From Clostridia bacterium (GTDB taxonomy: Bacteria; Bacillota; Clostridia; Oscillospirales; QAKW01), in the NCBI GenBank assembly GCA_017560905.1, contig JAFZEA010000029.1, forward strand, positions 1 through 49,848: 49,848 bases of DNA. The letters are read 5' to 3'. The translations under genes and the position numbers were made by a program. Under the pieces are notes generated by a model. The model had not been told where the DNA came from. It made no database searches and saw only the letters and a program-made list of their open reading frames with translations. Positions 5,920 through 46,782 of the stretch are shown here, in pieces. Every line of letters starts with the position of its first letter. Positions within the stretch are counted from its first letter, which is position 1.

Positions 5920-5948
5920 TTGACTAGCCAAAAGCTTTGTGCTATCAT
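5920..5948 (+). promoter_or_regulatory. sigma-A promoter of the LTA-synthase-like gene
   Basis: TTGACT, a 17-base spacer and TATCAT. The start codon lies 34 bases downstream behind AGAGGAA. Confidence 0.7.
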
Positions 5949-5981: not shown

Positions 5982-8519
5982 ATGAACAAAACAAAATCCC
6001 CCTTTCAAAACATAAACCTTAATATCAAAGATACTCTCGTCGACAAACTGTGGGCGCTGCTCTTTTGTGTATCTGTCTTTGTATACCTGGAGCTTGCCTT
6101 GCATCTTTTTGTTTACAAAAGCATCTCTTTTGACATCGTTTTCCCCCTGCTGTTTGCAACGATCGCGGGCAGTGTGCTGTTTTTCATCAGTTCTCTCTTT
6201 CCGACAAAGGCCAACCGTATTATTGGGCTGATACTCATTGCCATTACCGTCATTTACTATGAGGTGCAGTTGGTGTACCACGGCATTTTCGGCACCTTTA
6301 TGTCGGTATACCAGATGTTGATGGGCGCCGAAGCGGTCACCAACTTTTTCTCTCAGATGATGCACGCCATTCTGGTCAATATTCTCCCCATACTGGTGCT
6401 GCTGATTCCGTTGATTGCCGCAGCCGTTTTGCTGTTTACCAAAAAGATGCAGTTTTGCCGCATCACACTCATTCAGGTACTGCCGACACTGCTGCTGACT
6501 GCGGTGTTTTCTCTCATAACGGTGCTGACCCTGTACCTGACCAATACCTCTGCGGTTTCCGCCTATGCCGTACTGGTCAACCCCAATACCACCAGTGAGT
6601 CCTCCATCCGCACGCTGGGTCTGGTGGCCACGACGGTGCAGGAAACAAGCAGTTTACTGGCCGCACAAAACGGTCAGAGCATTGCCTTTGCGCAGACGCC
6701 GCTGGATGACGTACAGCAAACCGACGATGCGGTCAATGCTATGGATATAAACTTTGCGGAGCTTAGCGATTCCACCGACAGCGAAGCCCTCAAAGCCATT
6801 GATAACTACCTTTCCGAAACCGCCCCCTCCTCCAAAAACGAGTACACAGGCATCGCCGAAGGGTACAACGTCGTCACCATTTGCGCCGAGGCGTTTTCGC
6901 CGCTGGTCATCAGTGAGGATCTGACCCCCACGCTTTACAAACTGTCCAACAGCGGCTTTGTATTCAACAATTTTTACAATTCCTTCCCCAACACCACCAC
7001 CAACGGTGAATATACCTTCTGTATGGGTCTTTTGCCCAATATGTCCCGCAAGAAAATCGACTCCAGCTTTAACCTTGCGGCCGACAATTATTTACCCTAC
7101 TGTCTGGGCAATGCGCTGGGAGAGGTCGGTTATGAGACCTACGCCTATCACAACTATTACGCCACCTTCTACGACCGCCACATCACCCACCCCAACATGG
7201 GTTATGATTTCAAGGCCATTGCGCAGGGGCTGGACATTCCCGTGGAAAACCCTTGCTCCGACCACGAAATGATGCTGGAGTCTATGGATGATTTTATAAA
7301 CTCCGACAAGCCCTTCCACGCTTACTATATGACCTACAGCGGTCACTATCAGTATGACTGGAACAACAGCATGAGCGCCAAGCACCGTGACAAGGTCGAA
7401 CACCTCCCCTATTCGGATACCGTAAAGGCCTATATCGCCTGCAACCTGGAGGTCGAGTATGCCCTTGAAGCGCTGATGAAAAAGCTCGAAGAGGCAGGCA
7501 AGGCAGACAACACGGTAATCGTACTGACCACCGATCACTACCCCTATGGTCTGCCGGACGAATTTTACGACGAGTTGGCGGGTCACACCGTCGACAAGGT
7601 GTATGAAAAATACAGCAATTCCTTTATCTGCTACGTTCCCGGTATTACGGTAGAGGTAGATAAATATTGCAGCAGTGCCGACATTCTGCCCACCGTCCTC
7701 AACCTGCTGGGCGTGAAATATGATTCCCGATTGCTGGCAGGCCGCGACGTGCTCTCCGATTCTATGAGCATCGCCATTCTGGCCGACCAGAGCTTTATCA
7801 CCGACGACTTCAGATACGATGCCGCCACCGGCACCGTTTTGTCCAATGACGGCACCGCCGTAGATGCCGCACTACTGCAGGAATATATAAACTTTGTGGC
7901 CAATCGCTTTACGCTGTCCACCGCAATACTTGACTATGACTATTATGCCCACGTATTCGACCGCACCTCACAGGCCCCCTCCAATCAGGTGGTCAACTAT
8001 GAGGACATCCAGAACCCCTATATAGAGAGCGCAGTTACCTTTATGGTGATGAAGGGCTATATGGAGGCCGTCAGCGACAGCGAATTCGGGCTGGCCACAC
8101 AAGAGGGCAATAACGCCAGAGAATTTCTGCAAGTCCTCTACAAAATGGCAGGCAGCCCCGAAATCGAAGCTGCCGAAGGCACCCACGCGGCTCTTTCCTG
8201 GGCGCTGAGTGTGGGACTGACAGAAGACAAGGCCATATGGGACACCGATGTCACCTATGCTTCTGCGGCCAAGCTGATTTACCGTTTCACCGCACTGCAC
8301 AACGGCACTGACCCCCAGGTCAATGCAGAAAACCTGGCGCAGCGTGCGGCGGAATATCCGGACGTTCCCGAAGATATCTTGTCTTGTCTGAGTTGGTGCA
8401 CCGACAATAAGATCATCACCGGTGCCACGCTGACAATGCCCTATGAGGCAAGCAACACGGTACTCACCCGCCATCAGATTGCCACCTACCTGCAGAGAAT
8501 GTATCTGATGCTCAACTAA
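5982..8519 (+). CDS. LTA synthase-like sulfatase-fold phosphotransferase with C-terminal SLH-like repeats
   Basis: The 845-residue protein has about five N-terminal membrane helices (roughly 15-210), then an extracellular alkaline-phosphatase/sulfatase domain. Conserved elements are the metal-binding start (VVTICAEAFSPL), the nucleophile region FPNTTTNGEYTF with the expected catalytic Thr, the YHNYYATFYDR segment and TVIVLTTDHYPYG with the late metal ligands. LtaS-type enzymes transfer glycerol-phosphate from phosphatidylglycerol to a growing polymer or lipid. The last 180 residues are atypical: three units ending like SLH repeats (NNAREFLQVLYKMAG; SAAKLIYRF; YPDVPED...LTRHQIATYLQRMY). Start 5982 is chosen over 5937 because AGAGGAA precedes it. 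Confidence 0.88.
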   Translation: MNKTKSPFQNINLNIKDTLVDKLWALLFCVSVFVYLELALHLFVYKSISFDIVFPLLFATIAGSVLFFISSLFPTKANRIIGLILIAITVIYYEVQLVYHGIFGTFMSVYQMLMGAEAVTNFFSQMMHAILVNILPILVLLIPLIAAAVLLFTKKMQFCRITLIQVLPTLLLTAVFSLITVLTLYLTNTSAVSAYAVLVNPNTTSESSIRTLGLVATTVQETSSLLAAQNGQSIAFAQTPLDDVQQTDDAVNAMDINFAELSDSTDSEALKAIDNYLSETAPSSKNEYTGIAEGYNVVTICAEAFSPLVISEDLTPTLYKLSNSGFVFNNFYNSFPNTTTNGEYTFCMGLLPNMSRKKIDSSFNLAADNYLPYCLGNALGEVGYETYAYHNYYATFYDRHITHPNMGYDFKAIAQGLDIPVENPCSDHEMMLESMDDFINSDKPFHAYYMTYSGHYQYDWNNSMSAKHRDKVEHLPYSDTVKAYIACNLEVEYALEALMKKLEEAGKADNTVIVLTTDHYPYGLPDEFYDELAGHTVDKVYEKYSNSFICYVPGITVEVDKYCSSADILPTVLNLLGVKYDSRLLAGRDVLSDSMSIAILADQSFITDDFRYDAATGTVLSNDGTAVDAALLQEYINFVANRFTLSTAILDYDYYAHVFDRTSQAPSNQVVNYEDIQNPYIESAVTFMVMKGYMEAVSDSEFGLATQEGNNAREFLQVLYKMAGSPEIEAAEGTHAALSWALSVGLTEDKAIWDTDVTYASAAKLIYRFTALHNGTDPQVNAENLAQRAAEYPDVPEDILSCLSWCTDNKIITGATLTMPYEASNTVLTRHQIATYLQRMYLMLN

Positions 8520-42168: not shown

Positions 42169-45100
42169 ATGAAAACTATCAGAAAAACCAAGATCGTCTC
42201 TTTTCTGTGCATCATAGCCATGCTTTTCAGTATGTGCTCTATGTTTGCGCTGGCAGAGGCAACCTACTCCAATCCTATCGTTGTAAACGGCTCTTCCTAC
42301 GACAACGATAAGACCCCGCCTGCCCATGACATTTCTGTTATGAGCTTTAACATTCTGCAGTCCGGCGCAGGCACATATGACAAGCCTGCCAACCGTCTGA
42401 ATTATGTTATGACCACCATCCAAACCTTTGAACCCGACGTAATCGGTGTGCAGGAAGCCTCCGACACCAAGGTAAACGGCTTTACCTGGTCTACTTCTCT
42501 TGTTCAGAGAATGTCTGCCCTCGGCTACACCGCCGTCACCCTCAACAATGATGCTCTGTACAATGACGGTGTTAGATGCGGCAGCACTGACATTTCCAAC
42601 GGTTTGATCATCTTCTACAAGACCGACCGTTTCACGGCCACCGCCTATGGTCGTAAGAATATGGTCGTTACAGCCAATTATACCGAAACCATTTTGGGCT
42701 CCATCACGCGGCCCGCAACCAAGACCGATGACGGTCGCTGGTATCAGTGGGTCAAGCTGACCGATAACGAGAAGAACACCGAGTTCTACATGTACAACAC
42801 CCATCTGAGCGTCAACGGCGGTGCTGATGATGAAGGATGGGGACAGTACGATGAAGAGCAGGCCGCTTCTATCGGTGAGCAGTGCCGTACCCAGCAGATC
42901 AAGATGATCTTTGACAGCATCAACTCCGTTGCCGCCGATCAGCCCTTCTTCGTTACAGGTGACTTTAACACAGGCAACAATTCTGCCACCTCCGACGAAT
43001 CCACCGGTCAGTTAGGTCTTCTTGCCAACTATCCCTATGTAGGCGATTCTGCCGAGATTGCCGACAGCAACATTTCTGCGCATCCCAACGGCCGTATCGA
43101 CCACATCTATGTCAATGCCGATCTGACCAAGGTAATTGAGCACCGTGCCGCACAGGAAAACGTTGACGGCCGCGCCCCTTCCGACCACTATGCTCTGGTA
43201 TCATACAACAACTACTCCCCCAACGTCACCTTCGGCGACGGCGAATATGACAGAGTCAACGGTATTTTCACCACAACCTCTGACAGCAGTTCCTATACCT
43301 TTGACATCACCGACAATACCACTGCCGAAAATCTGAGTTGGAGCATCAGCGGTGCCAACGGCAATACCGTCGCTCTGAACGACGCTTACAATACCTACAC
43401 CATCAACTTTACTTCCGGCGGCAAAAACCTCGGTTCCGTCAAGGCAACCATCAAGTACACCGGTGCCGCCACCGCTACCGTTACCGCGTCTCAGGCGCTC
43501 AACAGCTATTTTGCCAACGACGCTTATCACGTAATCGTTAACAATACCACCGATTCGATCAAACTGAACGTCGCAGGCGGCACGCTGTACAACGGCAGCT
43601 CTTCTTTGGGCACTGCCTATACCGTAAACGGTATTGCCGGTGGCAGAACGGAGTATTCCGTTTCCACCGCAGGTCATACCTATCCCCTCTACATCTATAA
43701 AGAAACTGCCTCCGCAGCAAGCAACACCATCTACATTGACAACAATTTTGCCGGCGAGACCGGTACCGTTGCATTCTATGACGGCACCGACGTTATCCTG
43801 GCAAAGGGTCAGGTCACTGCACTGAGCACACTGGAAGCCTTTGCGAAGAAATATTCCTCCAGCAACGGATATACCGCACGTGTTGCCGCCGGTACCTATG
43901 AAGGAAACACCACCGCTTTCAAAGCCAACGTTACCATCTTGGGTATCAACGCTGACAAGCCCGCCATCGACGGCAACTGGAATCTCAATGCCGCCAGAGG
44001 TGAGGAAACCGTCATTCTCGGCCGTTTGTACTTCTCTGCTCCCGGCAACCGCACCTATACCGTTAAGGGCTTTACCTTCAGCGGATACTGGGCCGATACC
44101 GCCGCTATCTACCTTTCTTCCAGCGGCTCCACCGAAGACCAGCTCAAGAACACCTTGACCATGGATATTGAGAACAATATCTTTGACGGTTACGGTGATG
44201 CGTACAACGATGCTGCCATCCGTGGTAACAACGCCATCCAGAAGTCCGGTATCATCGCAGGAAACTACTTCAAATACAACGGTAACGAGGGTACCCGCGA
44301 CAACCGCAGCATCTTCTTCCGTAACATCAAGGGTCTGACCATTGAAAACAACCGCTTTGTCAACGTTCCTCTCCCCATGTGGTTGACCAGTGAATATACC
44401 AACGATGGTGCTTCTTATCCCGGTTGGGCCGTATACACCGTTCAGTCCAATCGTTTTGAAGCCTGCAAATATATTTCCAACAACATCACCAACATCGGCA
44501 GCAACACTGCCGCCGACATCAAGTACCTCGACAACGACTTTATCCGCTGCGCATACTTCACCAGCAACTATGCTATCATTGATGTGCAGATCACAGATAC
44601 CACCTACAAGAATGTATTTGAAAACGTTTCTTTCACTGCCGAAGGAAACCGCTTTATTGGAACCAATCGTTCTATCGCCGTTCGCCGTGCAAGCAACAAA
44701 GATACCAACGCAGAGAATATGAACGATATGAGCAAAATGACGGTTAAGATCAACCGCAATATGTTCTACAAGGCACACGAGCATCATTCACAGGCCTCCA
44801 ACCTGCGTGTCAACCTGCGCTTCAGCTTCCTGCCGGACAGCACACTGACCCCCGACAAAGCGCTCAGCACTAACAACTGGGATTTCCGTTACAATTACTT
44901 TGAATCCGACGTATACAACACCAATGGTGACAGCACCTACGGTGTCAAAACTGACAACATTGCCAACCCCGCCAACTACATGAATATCAATGTAGACAAA
45001 ACAGTTGATTCCAAGACCACCACCGTCAACAGTTTTGCTTTAAATTCCGCAATGTATACGCCCTACTACGTTGACGAGGCTATGACTACCCTGAGCAACG

Positions 45101-46782
45101 GCAGCACCCCCACACTGAACATTACCGCCGCCGACAGCACCGTCACCTATGACGGCGCACCCCATAGCATCGAGGTCACTGCCGACAATTACGCTACCGT
45201 CCTGTACGGTACCGTAAACGGCACTTACGACCTGACCGAAGCTCCCGCCTATACCGAGGCAGGTAAATACAACATTTACTACAAGGTTTCCCGTCAGGGC
45301 TATACCACGGTTACCGGCACCGTAAAACTGACCATTCAGCCCCTTACCGACCGTGTCATCGCCATAAATGATATGGTTAAGCTGTACACAGGCGAAGCCT
45401 ACGCGCTTAGCTTTACTCCCATAGCAGGCGATATCGTTACCTACACCGTTAACGGTGCTACCTACAGCACAATGCCCGCCTTCACCGAGATCGGCACCTA
45501 CGACATCACCGTCACAGTTGTCAACAACAATATGGGCGGCGGCACCTGCAATGCAAAGCTGATCATCATCGACCCCTCCTTGTCCGACGTAGTCGTTACA
45601 GGTTATCACGGTTTCTATGACGGCAAGGCGCACGGTGTAACCGTTTCCGGTATCATTCCCGATGATATGAGCATTTCCTATTCCGTAAACGGCGGTGCGT
45701 ACACCGCAACTGCGCCCACCTTCACAAGCGTGGGCGAATACACTGTAAATGTCAAGTTCGGCGGCGCACAGTATACCGACATCATCCGCACCGCCACCGT
45801 CACCATCTCCCCCGTTATGATCACAGGTATTGAGGTAGCAGGTTATCACGATTTCTATGACGGCAAGGCGCACGGTGTAACCATTACCGGTATCATTCCC
45901 GACGATATGAGCATTTCCTATTCCGTGAACGGCGGTGCGTATACCGCAACTGCACCCACCTTCACAAACGTGGGCGAATACACTGTAAATGTCAAGTTTG
46001 GCGGCGCACGGTATGCCGAAATCATCCGCACCGCCACCGTCACCATCTCCCCCGTTATGATCACAGGTGTTGAGGTAGCAGGTTATGAGGGTATCGTAGA
46101 CGGAGCGGCTCACGGCTTGACCATCAGCGGCACACAGAAGGGTGACACCGTTACCTACACCGTTAACGGCCGTGTGACCACCCAAGCCCCCACCTTCACA
46201 AACGAAGGCACCTACGTTATCACCGTTACCATCAGCCGTGCAAACCACGTTGACAGACTGTTTGCCACAACGGTTATTCTGACCGGTACTGATGATCTCT
46301 ATGATTTCTTCAATCTGACCACCGGAGAGATCACCGTAGTCGATCAGCAAACCAAGTTGTCCAATCTGACATGGGCCTCCGAGCTGTCTTTGACCGCTGA
46401 CGGCCAGAGATTCTTGGCCATCGGTAACATCTCGGTTATCTCCTACGGCGTCAAGTATGCCGCCAACATCAATGACCTTATCGACTATGCCCATGATCGC
46501 AAGAACGGCCTGACCACACTCGACTCCACCGACACTGTCATTGAAATGGAAAGCGCCGAGAACAACGAAGGCCTCAACCCCCTCTACCGCACTACCAATT
46601 ACACCATCACCAATCTTCAGCCCCTGCGCGAGAGATACGCTATGGCCTATATCCGCTATGTAGTTGACGGTGTGGTTTACGAAGAATACGGCACCATCAC
46701 TGCCGCTTCCACTTACCTTGACAACGGTTTGATTGGCGGCATCGGCGGTACCGAAGACAGAGAAGACATTCTTGATGACTAA
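42169..46782 (+). CDS. secreted endonuclease/exonuclease/phosphatase-fold surface protein with repeats
   Basis: The 1,537-residue protein has a signal peptide (cleavage near MFALAEA). Residues about 52-350 form an EEP/DNase I-like domain with SVMSFNILQ, VIGVQEA, YNTHLSVN, VTGDFNTG, GRIDHIYVN and the PSDHYALV end; the metal and catalytic residues are present. It may cleave nucleic acid, sphingomyelin or inositol phosphates. Then come an Ig-like region, a parallel beta-helix (about 540-1000), and MBG/Ig-like repeats (about 985-1365), two almost identical. No LPXTG or SLH motif is seen. A VYEEYG-type C-terminal Ig-like domain closes it. Confidence 0.85.
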   Translation: MKTIRKTKIVSFLCIIAMLFSMCSMFALAEATYSNPIVVNGSSYDNDKTPPAHDISVMSFNILQSGAGTYDKPANRLNYVMTTIQTFEPDVIGVQEASDTKVNGFTWSTSLVQRMSALGYTAVTLNNDALYNDGVRCGSTDISNGLIIFYKTDRFTATAYGRKNMVVTANYTETILGSITRPATKTDDGRWYQWVKLTDNEKNTEFYMYNTHLSVNGGADDEGWGQYDEEQAASIGEQCRTQQIKMIFDSINSVAADQPFFVTGDFNTGNNSATSDESTGQLGLLANYPYVGDSAEIADSNISAHPNGRIDHIYVNADLTKVIEHRAAQENVDGRAPSDHYALVSYNNYSPNVTFGDGEYDRVNGIFTTTSDSSSYTFDITDNTTAENLSWSISGANGNTVALNDAYNTYTINFTSGGKNLGSVKATIKYTGAATATVTASQALNSYFANDAYHVIVNNTTDSIKLNVAGGTLYNGSSSLGTAYTVNGIAGGRTEYSVSTAGHTYPLYIYKETASAASNTIYIDNNFAGETGTVAFYDGTDVILAKGQVTALSTLEAFAKKYSSSNGYTARVAAGTYEGNTTAFKANVTILGINADKPAIDGNWNLNAARGEETVILGRLYFSAPGNRTYTVKGFTFSGYWADTAAIYLSSSGSTEDQLKNTLTMDIENNIFDGYGDAYNDAAIRGNNAIQKSGIIAGNYFKYNGNEGTRDNRSIFFRNIKGLTIENNRFVNVPLPMWLTSEYTNDGASYPGWAVYTVQSNRFEACKYISNNITNIGSNTAADIKYLDNDFIRCAYFTSNYAIIDVQITDTTYKNVFENVSFTAEGNRFIGTNRSIAVRRASNKDTNAENMNDMSKMTVKINRNMFYKAHEHHSQASNLRVNLRFSFLPDSTLTPDKALSTNNWDFRYNYFESDVYNTNGDSTYGVKTDNIANPANYMNINVDKTVDSKTTTVNSFALNSAMYTPYYVDEAMTTLSNGSTPTLNITAADSTVTYDGAPHSIEVTADNYATVLYGTVNGTYDLTEAPAYTEAGKYNIYYKVSRQGYTTVTGTVKLTIQPLTDRVIAINDMVKLYTGEAYALSFTPIAGDIVTYTVNGATYSTMPAFTEIGTYDITVTVVNNNMGGGTCNAKLIIIDPSLSDVVVTGYHGFYDGKAHGVTVSGIIPDDMSISYSVNGGAYTATAPTFTSVGEYTVNVKFGGAQYTDIIRTATVTISPVMITGIEVAGYHDFYDGKAHGVTITGIIPDDMSISYSVNGGAYTATAPTFTNVGEYTVNVKFGGARYAEIIRTATVTISPVMITGVEVAGYEGIVDGAAHGLTISGTQKGDTVTYTVNGRVTTQAPTFTNEGTYVITVTISRANHVDRLFATTVILTGTDDLYDFFNLTTGEITVVDQQTKLSNLTWASELSLTADGQRFLAIGNISVISYGVKYAANINDLIDYAHDRKNGLTTLDSTDTVIEMESAENNEGLNPLYRTTNYTITNLQPLRERYAMAYIRYVVDGVVYEEYGTITAASTYLDNGLIGGIGGTEDREDILDD
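45601..46080 (+). repeat. two 240-bp tandem repeats within the surface protein gene
   Basis: 45601-45840 and 45841-46080 are nearly identical with exact 240-base period, each encoding an 80-residue domain (GYH[GD]FYDGKAHGVT ... NGGAYTATAPTFT). A third, diverged copy follows from 46081. Confidence 0.95.

Follow-up and report, generated by a model that had tools for sequence, protein, structure and literature searches.

What is a module of the S-layer homology (SLH) type doing at the end of a membrane enzyme? SLH domains are familiar as modules that anchor surface proteins, and the question is raised by a gene on a stretch of 49,848 nucleotides from a Clostridia bacterium of the order Oscillospirales (assembly GCA_017560905.1, contig JAFZEA010000029.1, positions 1 to 49,848), the whole of which is referred to here as the window. 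The gene, at 5982..8519 on the + strand, is an open and complete reading frame for a protein of 845 aa, an LtaS-like sulfatase with a divergent SLH-trimer tail. By computation, we find a catalytic domain with an intact metal site, joined to a tail that has a predicted SLH fold, descends from SLH triplets, is conserved throughout its clade and has lost the known binding grooves there. Based on these data, we suggest that the protein is an LtaS-type transferase joined to an SLH trimer that has drifted from classical binding, and that the tail may serve as a docking or positioning module, a reading whose probability we judge to be evenly balanced.

A catalytic domain of the LtaS type

Residues about 266-655 (6777..7946, +) are assigned to an LtaS-type sulfatase-fold domain by Pfam, by sequence search against solved structures and by structure comparison. 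Pfam Sulfatase (PF00884) matches residues 296-578 with an E-value of 1.1e-26, and the second Pfam match, a weak phosphodiesterase, overlaps it. Among the solved structures, LtaS of S. aureus and further LtaS entries are closest by sequence (phmmer E 4.2e-21), and the matches stop at or before residue 653. The full-length AlphaFold2 (AF2) model was built from an alignment of 43 LtaS-like proteins and has a predicted local distance difference test score (pLDDT) of 90.4 and a predicted template modelling score (pTM) of 0.86. Its catalytic domain superposes on LtaS structures with Z-scores of 36-37 (best 37.4 over 387 residues), on LtaP with 34.8 and on the phosphoglycerol transferase GacH with 25.4 over 344 residues. 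We regard the LtaS-like identity of the catalytic part as practically certain.

According to PMC4973235, E255, T300 and H476 of LtaS are metal ligands, H347, D349, F353, W354, R356 and H416 form the glycerophosphate site, and H347, D349, W354 and R356 are important for activity. E255 aligns with E303 (6888..6890, +), T300 with T339 (6996..6998, +), H416 with H455 (7344..7346, +) and the DH pair D475-H476 with D518-H519 (7533..7538, +); H347 and R356 align with H390 and R399. E303, T339, H390, R399, H455, D518 and H519 are invariant in 43/43 aligned proteins. This alignment draws on a contig scan across genomes that gave at least 590 stretches and from which the best 80 of 411 relatives were kept; it consists of the window protein, three further loci and 39 of the 80 kept loci, with 41 of the 80, including the tailed L090, left out. 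Together with D475, which we take to be a metal ligand too, the metal-ligand set E255, T300, D475 and H476 (S. aureus numbering) has its counterparts in E303, T339, D518 and H519. In the glycerophosphate site H390, R399 and H455 are kept, and Y392 and Y397 are found in place of D349 and W354 of LtaS. Judged from these residues, the protein very likely has activity as a metal-dependent transferase or hydrolase of the LtaS-type family, and the name polyglycerolphosphate polymerase is not justified. A preliminary description of this DNA, made from its letters alone, had pointed to a sulfatase domain with a catalytic Thr region; the PF00884 match, LtaS as nearest solved structures and the invariant T339 at the position of T300 all bear this out.

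Descent and predicted fold of the tail

A short linker of about 16 residues connects the sulfatase domain to a tail of about 180 residues with three SLH-like units at residues about 672-724 (7995..8153, +), 728-774 (8163..8303, +) and 781-843 (8322..8510, +). Pfam SLH (PF00395) has no match in the window protein, either at E 10 with the whole protein or at E 1 with the tail alone, and scans with Pfam and NCBIfam make no SLH call on the tail; because these scans alone give no such call, its SLH nature would be overlooked. In the group of 19 tailed proteins to which the window protein belongs (the window's clade), Pfam SLH matches 5/19 tails at E<=1 (best 0.017), and in a sister clade of ten tailed proteins 9/10 (best 5.7e-15).

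Several comparisons link the tail to SLH triplets. When the tail alone was searched against 295 genomes of the same order, 55 of them had matches, and the tail aligns in register with SLH triplets across all three units, over about 170 residues; the alignment comprises the window tail, four LtaS-type tails and 26 other matches with kept loci, and Pfam SLH is detected in 26 of these 31 members. A hidden Markov model (HMM) of six triplets from the window's own genome, which were found by Pfam, come from eight kept loci and were not picked by likeness to the tail, gives the window tail alone 13.4 bits, against a maximum of 6.1 bits for 950 shuffled clade tails, a clear but modest margin. With this HMM the 19 tails of the clade score 6.2 to 23.9 bits and the full-length window protein only 7.5 bits. 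An HMM of 26 SLH triplets gives the window protein 70.9 bits, a value that is inflated because these triplets were picked for matching the tail, and with it no other stop-to-stop open reading frame (ORF) of at least 100 codons in the window scores above 1 bit. Likewise, the profile of the 19 tails scores 217.6 against the profile of the 26 similarity-chosen triplets, and 50 column-shuffled controls reach at most 22.6. Among Protein Data Bank (PDB) sequences, the 19-tail profile finds the S-layer protein SbsB as its best match (E 7e-4), and the profile of the sister clade reaches the SLH domain of Sap at 1.5e-21 and SpaA too. As judged by these computations on sequences, the tail shares common descent with SLH triplets, with its three units in register. 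A scan of viral contigs for the tail gave five pattern matches, none of them confirmed.

The predicted structure points the same way. The tail-only AF2 model (pLDDT 90.1, pTM 0.87) matches the SLH domain of Sap (3pyw) with a Foldseek E-value of 2.3e-4 and a Z-score of 16.6, at a root-mean-square deviation of 2.9 over 162 residues. The top 13 rows are all Sap and SpaA entries, with Z 13.7-16.6 (SpaA structures 13.7-15.1); an S-layer cytochrome follows at 10.0, and the chain after it has 3.9. Sequence identity of the tail to the solved domains of Sap and SpaA amounts to 12-15%. In the full-length model, the alignment for which held no stand-alone SLH protein but nine sister-clade proteins with tails, the tail, compared by its helices, has those of the tail model within one residue (tail numbers + 663), plus a short helix at 819-822, and the finding that no SLH chain is among the 50 Foldseek or VIA-align rows listed for the full-length model is uninformative, since the sulfatase fills the list. 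On the strength of the models, the tail almost certainly has an SLH fold. The preliminary description had seen three C-terminal units with SLH-like motifs. The triplet stands, and the TR motif is kept in unit 3 only (LTRHQ) and lost in units 1 and 2. It had also proposed comparison with PF00395, which fails on the window, and structure prediction, which yields a three-unit SLH fold rather than a part of the sulfatase fold; the two outcomes that it had coupled as speaking against the idea, no SLH match and a tail folded into the sulfatase, have thus come apart.

Loss of the published binding grooves

According to Blackler et al. 2018 (PMC6081394), three residues make an SLH groove capable of binding, Gly29 of unit n, Trp13 of unit n+1 and Arg43 of unit n+2, and Gly29Ala disrupts binding in a SpaA groove. 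We counted grooves on a MAFFT alignment, accepting Tyr for Trp13. In the window protein, the Trp13, Gly29 and Arg43 positions hold Y, A and A in unit 1 and G, D and Y in unit 2; unit 3 has D for Trp13 and keeps Gly29 and Arg43. None of its three grooves is complete (0/3), nor does any of the 19 proteins of its clade (the window protein and 18 clade mates) have a complete groove. By comparison, a complete groove is present in 7/10 proteins of the sister clade, always groove 1 and in L089 also groove 2, and in 23/26 ordinary SLH triplets; these were drawn from matches to the tail and not at random, and 23/26 is a lower bound because five of the 26 have no letters at Arg43 of unit 3 and six none at Trp13 of unit 1. 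In the sister clade, gaps make the third unit hard to align with confidence; the repeat-3 Arg and the groove-1 positions look well placed.

The loss in the window's clade is systematic. Gly29 of unit 1 is found in 0/19 proteins, with A, P or L instead; Trp13 is found in 0/18 in unit 2 and 0/19 in unit 3; and Arg43 is found in 0/19 in unit 1, 3/19 in unit 2 and 19/19 in unit 3. If Phe is accepted for Trp13, groove 3 of L078 is the sole exception. The Trp13 positions of units 2 and 3, which stack on N-acetylmannosamine (ManNAc) in SpaA, are mostly Glu in this clade (10/18 and 12/19), a residue expected to repel a sugar that is anionic. The Arg43 equivalent of unit 3, R830 (8469..8471, +), is invariant in 19/19 proteins of the window's clade and 10/10 of the sister clade, and it is the only invariant groove residue left in the former. 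Elsewhere in the tail, P793 (18/19) and G703 (19/19) are clade-specific, and the invariant D675, Y720 and W740 are also SLH core positions. We consider it likely that classical pyruvyl-ManNAc binding has been lost. Tethering to the secondary wall polymer in the classical way, as first proposed for this protein, is not supported, since neither the window protein nor any of its 18 clade mates has even one of the three published grooves complete. Separately, three other loci (L043, L051 and L052) encode surface enzymes that by eye resemble 5'-nucleotidases and carry SLH triplets at the C-terminus. In these triplets, the Gly29 position of unit 1 holds Thr and the Trp13 position of unit 3 holds Glu, which would amount to partial groove erosion on another enzyme.

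Distribution and phylogeny

Among the best 80 relatives, 25 are tailed (at least 170 residues after a conserved DYY) and 53 end 5-33 residues past the DYY, in agreement with the earlier remark that a typical LtaS ends after the sulfatase domain. The other two, L081 with an 85-residue low-complexity extension and L097, which is cut by a contig end, were entered as untailed. The relatives in the databases stem mostly from animal guts. Record titles of the tailed loci name Oscillospiraceae, Clostridia, Ruminococcaceae and Peptococcaceae metagenome-assembled genomes; the hosts in these titles include goat, water buffalo, roe deer and sheep, and some names point to poultry. The window's genome has a second tailed paralogue (C27, 44% identical) and an untailed one (C9), and a genome of the same genus (G001) has two relatives, neither of them tailed.

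In a sulfatase-domain tree of 99 rows (the window, the 80 kept loci and 18 of 28 further ORFs), the 19 window-type tails form one group (support 95) and 11 other tails form a second (99), a pattern of two changes overall. A tree of 45 rows, chosen from the 99, gives the window-type group 85/79 and the other tailed group 100/99. The sister clade with a recognisable SLH tail consists of L088-L092, L102, L107, L122, L130 and L141. A single clade of all tailed proteins, that is one origin with losses, is not rejected (approximately unbiased test, p 0.227). The trees ask for two changes, and a single origin is also compatible with the data. In the 99-row tree, two untailed LtaS-like genes from contigs with CPR labels, in records titled Candidatus Nomurabacteria and Patescibacteria (L120 and L114), group together amid clostridial sequences, by transfer or mis-binning.

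Reading frame, N-terminal helices and genome context

The sequence GAGG precedes the ATG at 5982 on its 5' side, and an alternative TTG start at 5937 in the ORF list was judged less likely. The N-terminal part, residues 15-186 (6024..6539, +), has about five long helices in the secondary structure of the full-length AF2 model (residues 15-45, 50-70, 75-103, 109-152, which is broken, and 163-186), matching the five that had been noticed at the outset; they presumably span the membrane.

We ran ten neighbours of the gene in the window against Pfam, together with ten genes of other loci, two of which are tandem LtaS-like copies. The window neighbours include an MntP-like pump, a beta-CASP metallo-hydrolase and a Na/alanine symporter family protein. 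When neighbours are grouped over the 25 tailed loci and the window, the gene itself is found in 22 loci, long opposite-strand ORFs, mostly over the gene, in five, and all remaining groups in at most four; the symporter group is common to the window, L069 and L070, and in L069 an ordinary SLH protein is encoded two genes downstream. The same pair of genes, glutamate-synthase-like and GMP-synthase-like by eye, flanks the tailed gene or tandem in four loci of the sister clade (L092, L107, L122 and L141). Tandem pairs of tailed LtaS-like genes occur in 4/25 tailed loci (L071 1-4193, L082 4971-9985, L122 4995-10709 and L141 2206-7304); each copy has its own SLH-type tail, and in L071 the first copy is truncated at the end of the contig. 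Farther along the window, 42169-46782 (+) encodes a protein of 1537 aa with an endonuclease/exonuclease/phosphatase domain (Pfam) and, by eye, repeated units towards its C-terminal end; this protein has no SLH match.

Ordinary SLH matches are abundant in these bacteria, with 48 at E<=0.001 in the window's genome, which is 60% complete, and matches in 7/7 genomes tested. CsaB is the pyruvyl-transferase tied to the usual SLH ligand. It scores above cut-off in 7/10 genomes, among them three of the five tail-bearing ones tested (G005, G146 and G046), so that several of these bacteria probably produce the classical ligand. No CsaB match was found in the 60%-complete genome of the window or in G030, which is 98% complete and has a protein of the window's clade. 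Across tail-bearing genomes the result is mixed, and we do not take CsaB as proof of the ligand. As to D-alanylation, a pointer to a glycerolphosphate polymer, DltB-like matches occur in 7/7 genomes, none above the family cut-off.

A model for the tail and its alternatives

In the model that we suggest, the enzyme would be membrane-anchored, outward-facing and phosphoglycerol-transferase-like, and would move an alditol phosphate, probably from a lipid donor, onto an envelope polymer. The tail would no longer be a strong wall tether; instead, it may dock on another anionic envelope polymer, perhaps the acceptor or the product. In this model, R830, which by homology would thread into groove 1, could make contact with an anionic group, for instance a phosphodiester of the acceptor or product polymer. 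The suggestion in the preliminary description that the module may bind the product would thus be part of our reading. That the tail has such a glycan or polyol-phosphate docking role, as opposed to a purely structural or protein-contact role, is a tentative proposal that we place somewhat short of an even chance. More speculatively, an anchoring module may have turned into a part of the enzyme, with its pockets lost and the groove-1 Arg holding a polyol-phosphate acceptor or product, the enzyme measuring, extending or decorating the docked polymer; the sister clade with its one intact groove would then be a parallel or intermediate form that acts on a pyruvylated wall polymer. We regard this extended version, in both its parts, as unlikely.

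A number of points weigh against the docking model. R830 may be conserved for reasons of fold alone, and the ligand of the tail is a proposal from sequence and model. On the catalytic side, the protein reaches 101.9 bits with the NCBIfam LtaS equivalog NF053595, for which the cut-off is 970, and its substrate and polymerising activity are uncertain because the D349 and W354 positions hold Y392 and Y397. As for the SLH nature of the tail, the SbsB match is built from two stretches that are weak singly (independent E-values 1.3 and 6.7), Sap and SpaA are not among the five PDB matches of the 19-tail profile at E<=10, and the tail-only model leans to an SLH answer because its alignment held 26 SLH triplets, a bias from which the full-length model is free. 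Finally, no wall-polymer gene was recognised on reading the neighbours, with ten of the window and ten genes of other loci run against Pfam, and we rejected a pathway assignment from them; absences of pathway genes mean little with a genome that is 60% complete.

The alternative that survives best is that the tail has no glycan ligand and is a structural relic or a protein-protein module, serving stability, dimerisation or contact with a partner. It would account for the loss of all published pockets and for the invariance of D675, Y720 and W740 as core positions, and the side-by-side LtaS-like copies in L071, L082, L122 and L141 could form pairs. However, the R830 position reaches into the groove in SpaA, its invariance in 19/19 and 10/10 proteins seems to go beyond the needs of the fold, and the clade-specific P793 and G703 suggest a site under selection. 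We consider this alternative rather unlikely.

It is less probable still, in our judgement distinctly improbable, that the tail acts as a classical tether, binding a pyruvylated secondary wall polymer and holding the synthase at the wall. The SLH fold of the tail model, the wealth of ordinary SLH matches in the window's genome and the tested relatives, CsaB in G005, G146 and G046, and a groove 1 that is kept in most of the sister clade would all be in keeping with it. But there is no complete groove in any of the 19 proteins, in all of which unit 1 has A, P or L at Gly29, the position where Gly29Ala disrupts groove binding in SpaA (PMC6081394), and lacks Arg43. Moreover, CsaB was found neither in the window's incomplete genome nor in G030, and the enzyme already has presumed membrane helices and would need no tether. 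Last, that the tail is an unrelated look-alike helical bundle is very improbable: the silence of Pfam SLH on the window tail, the 12-15% identity to solved domains, a 19-tail profile without Sap or SpaA and a lowest clade score at the edge of the noise (6.2 against 6.1 bits) could be read that way, but are outweighed by some 170 residues in register with SLH triplets, 13 SLH chains ranked well above the cytochrome and all further chains, the profile-profile score even with its similarity-chosen triplets, SbsB reached by sequence, and Pfam SLH in 9/10 sister-clade tails.

These findings have wider implications. An SLH module is built here into a membrane enzyme whose family makes or decorates wall polymers, and the proteins form a graded series from one intact groove through a single arginine to no tail; the clade also adds a set of SLH-type folds that mostly escape Pfam SLH. 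Should the tail bind the enzyme's own polymer, this series would illustrate the conversion of an anchoring module into a substrate-binding part and would connect SLH biology to synthesis of the teichoic-acid type in gut Clostridia.

Comparison with known systems

In the titles and abstract openings found by pairing SLH with LtaS, sulfatase or wall-polymer terms in the open-licence literature, no such fusion is described, which is weak evidence of novelty. Two candidates, PMC5817068 and PMC6801904, were set aside; in the passages concerned, the LtaS matches are the plural LTAs.

The closest relatives of known function are LtaS and LtaP of S. aureus, L. monocytogenes and B. subtilis (2w5q, 4uor, 4uop and 2w8d), which share with the window protein the order of N-terminal helices and sulfatase-fold domain, the metal-ligand Glu, Thr and Asp-His, and the His and Arg of the glycerophosphate site. 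The window protein differs from them in having Tyr for W354 and D349, in scoring below the equivalog cut-off and in its extra SLH-type tail. GacH of S. pyogenes (6dgm and 5u9z) shares the catalytic fold but is more distant than LtaS; it is a precedent for decorating a wall polysaccharide. The SLH trimers of Sap (B. anthracis, 3pyw and 6bt4) and SpaA (P. alvei, 6cwc series) have the three-unit fold that is predicted for the tail, and the window tail differs from them in its incomplete Gly29/Trp13/Arg43 grooves. The sister clade has the same architecture as the window protein and the repeat-3 Arg in 10/10 proteins, but in contrast to the window's clade its tails are mostly recognised by Pfam SLH (9/10 at E<=1) and groove 1 is complete in 7/10. 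We rate the window protein as a known enzyme family and a known fold in a new combination, with an eroded binding site.

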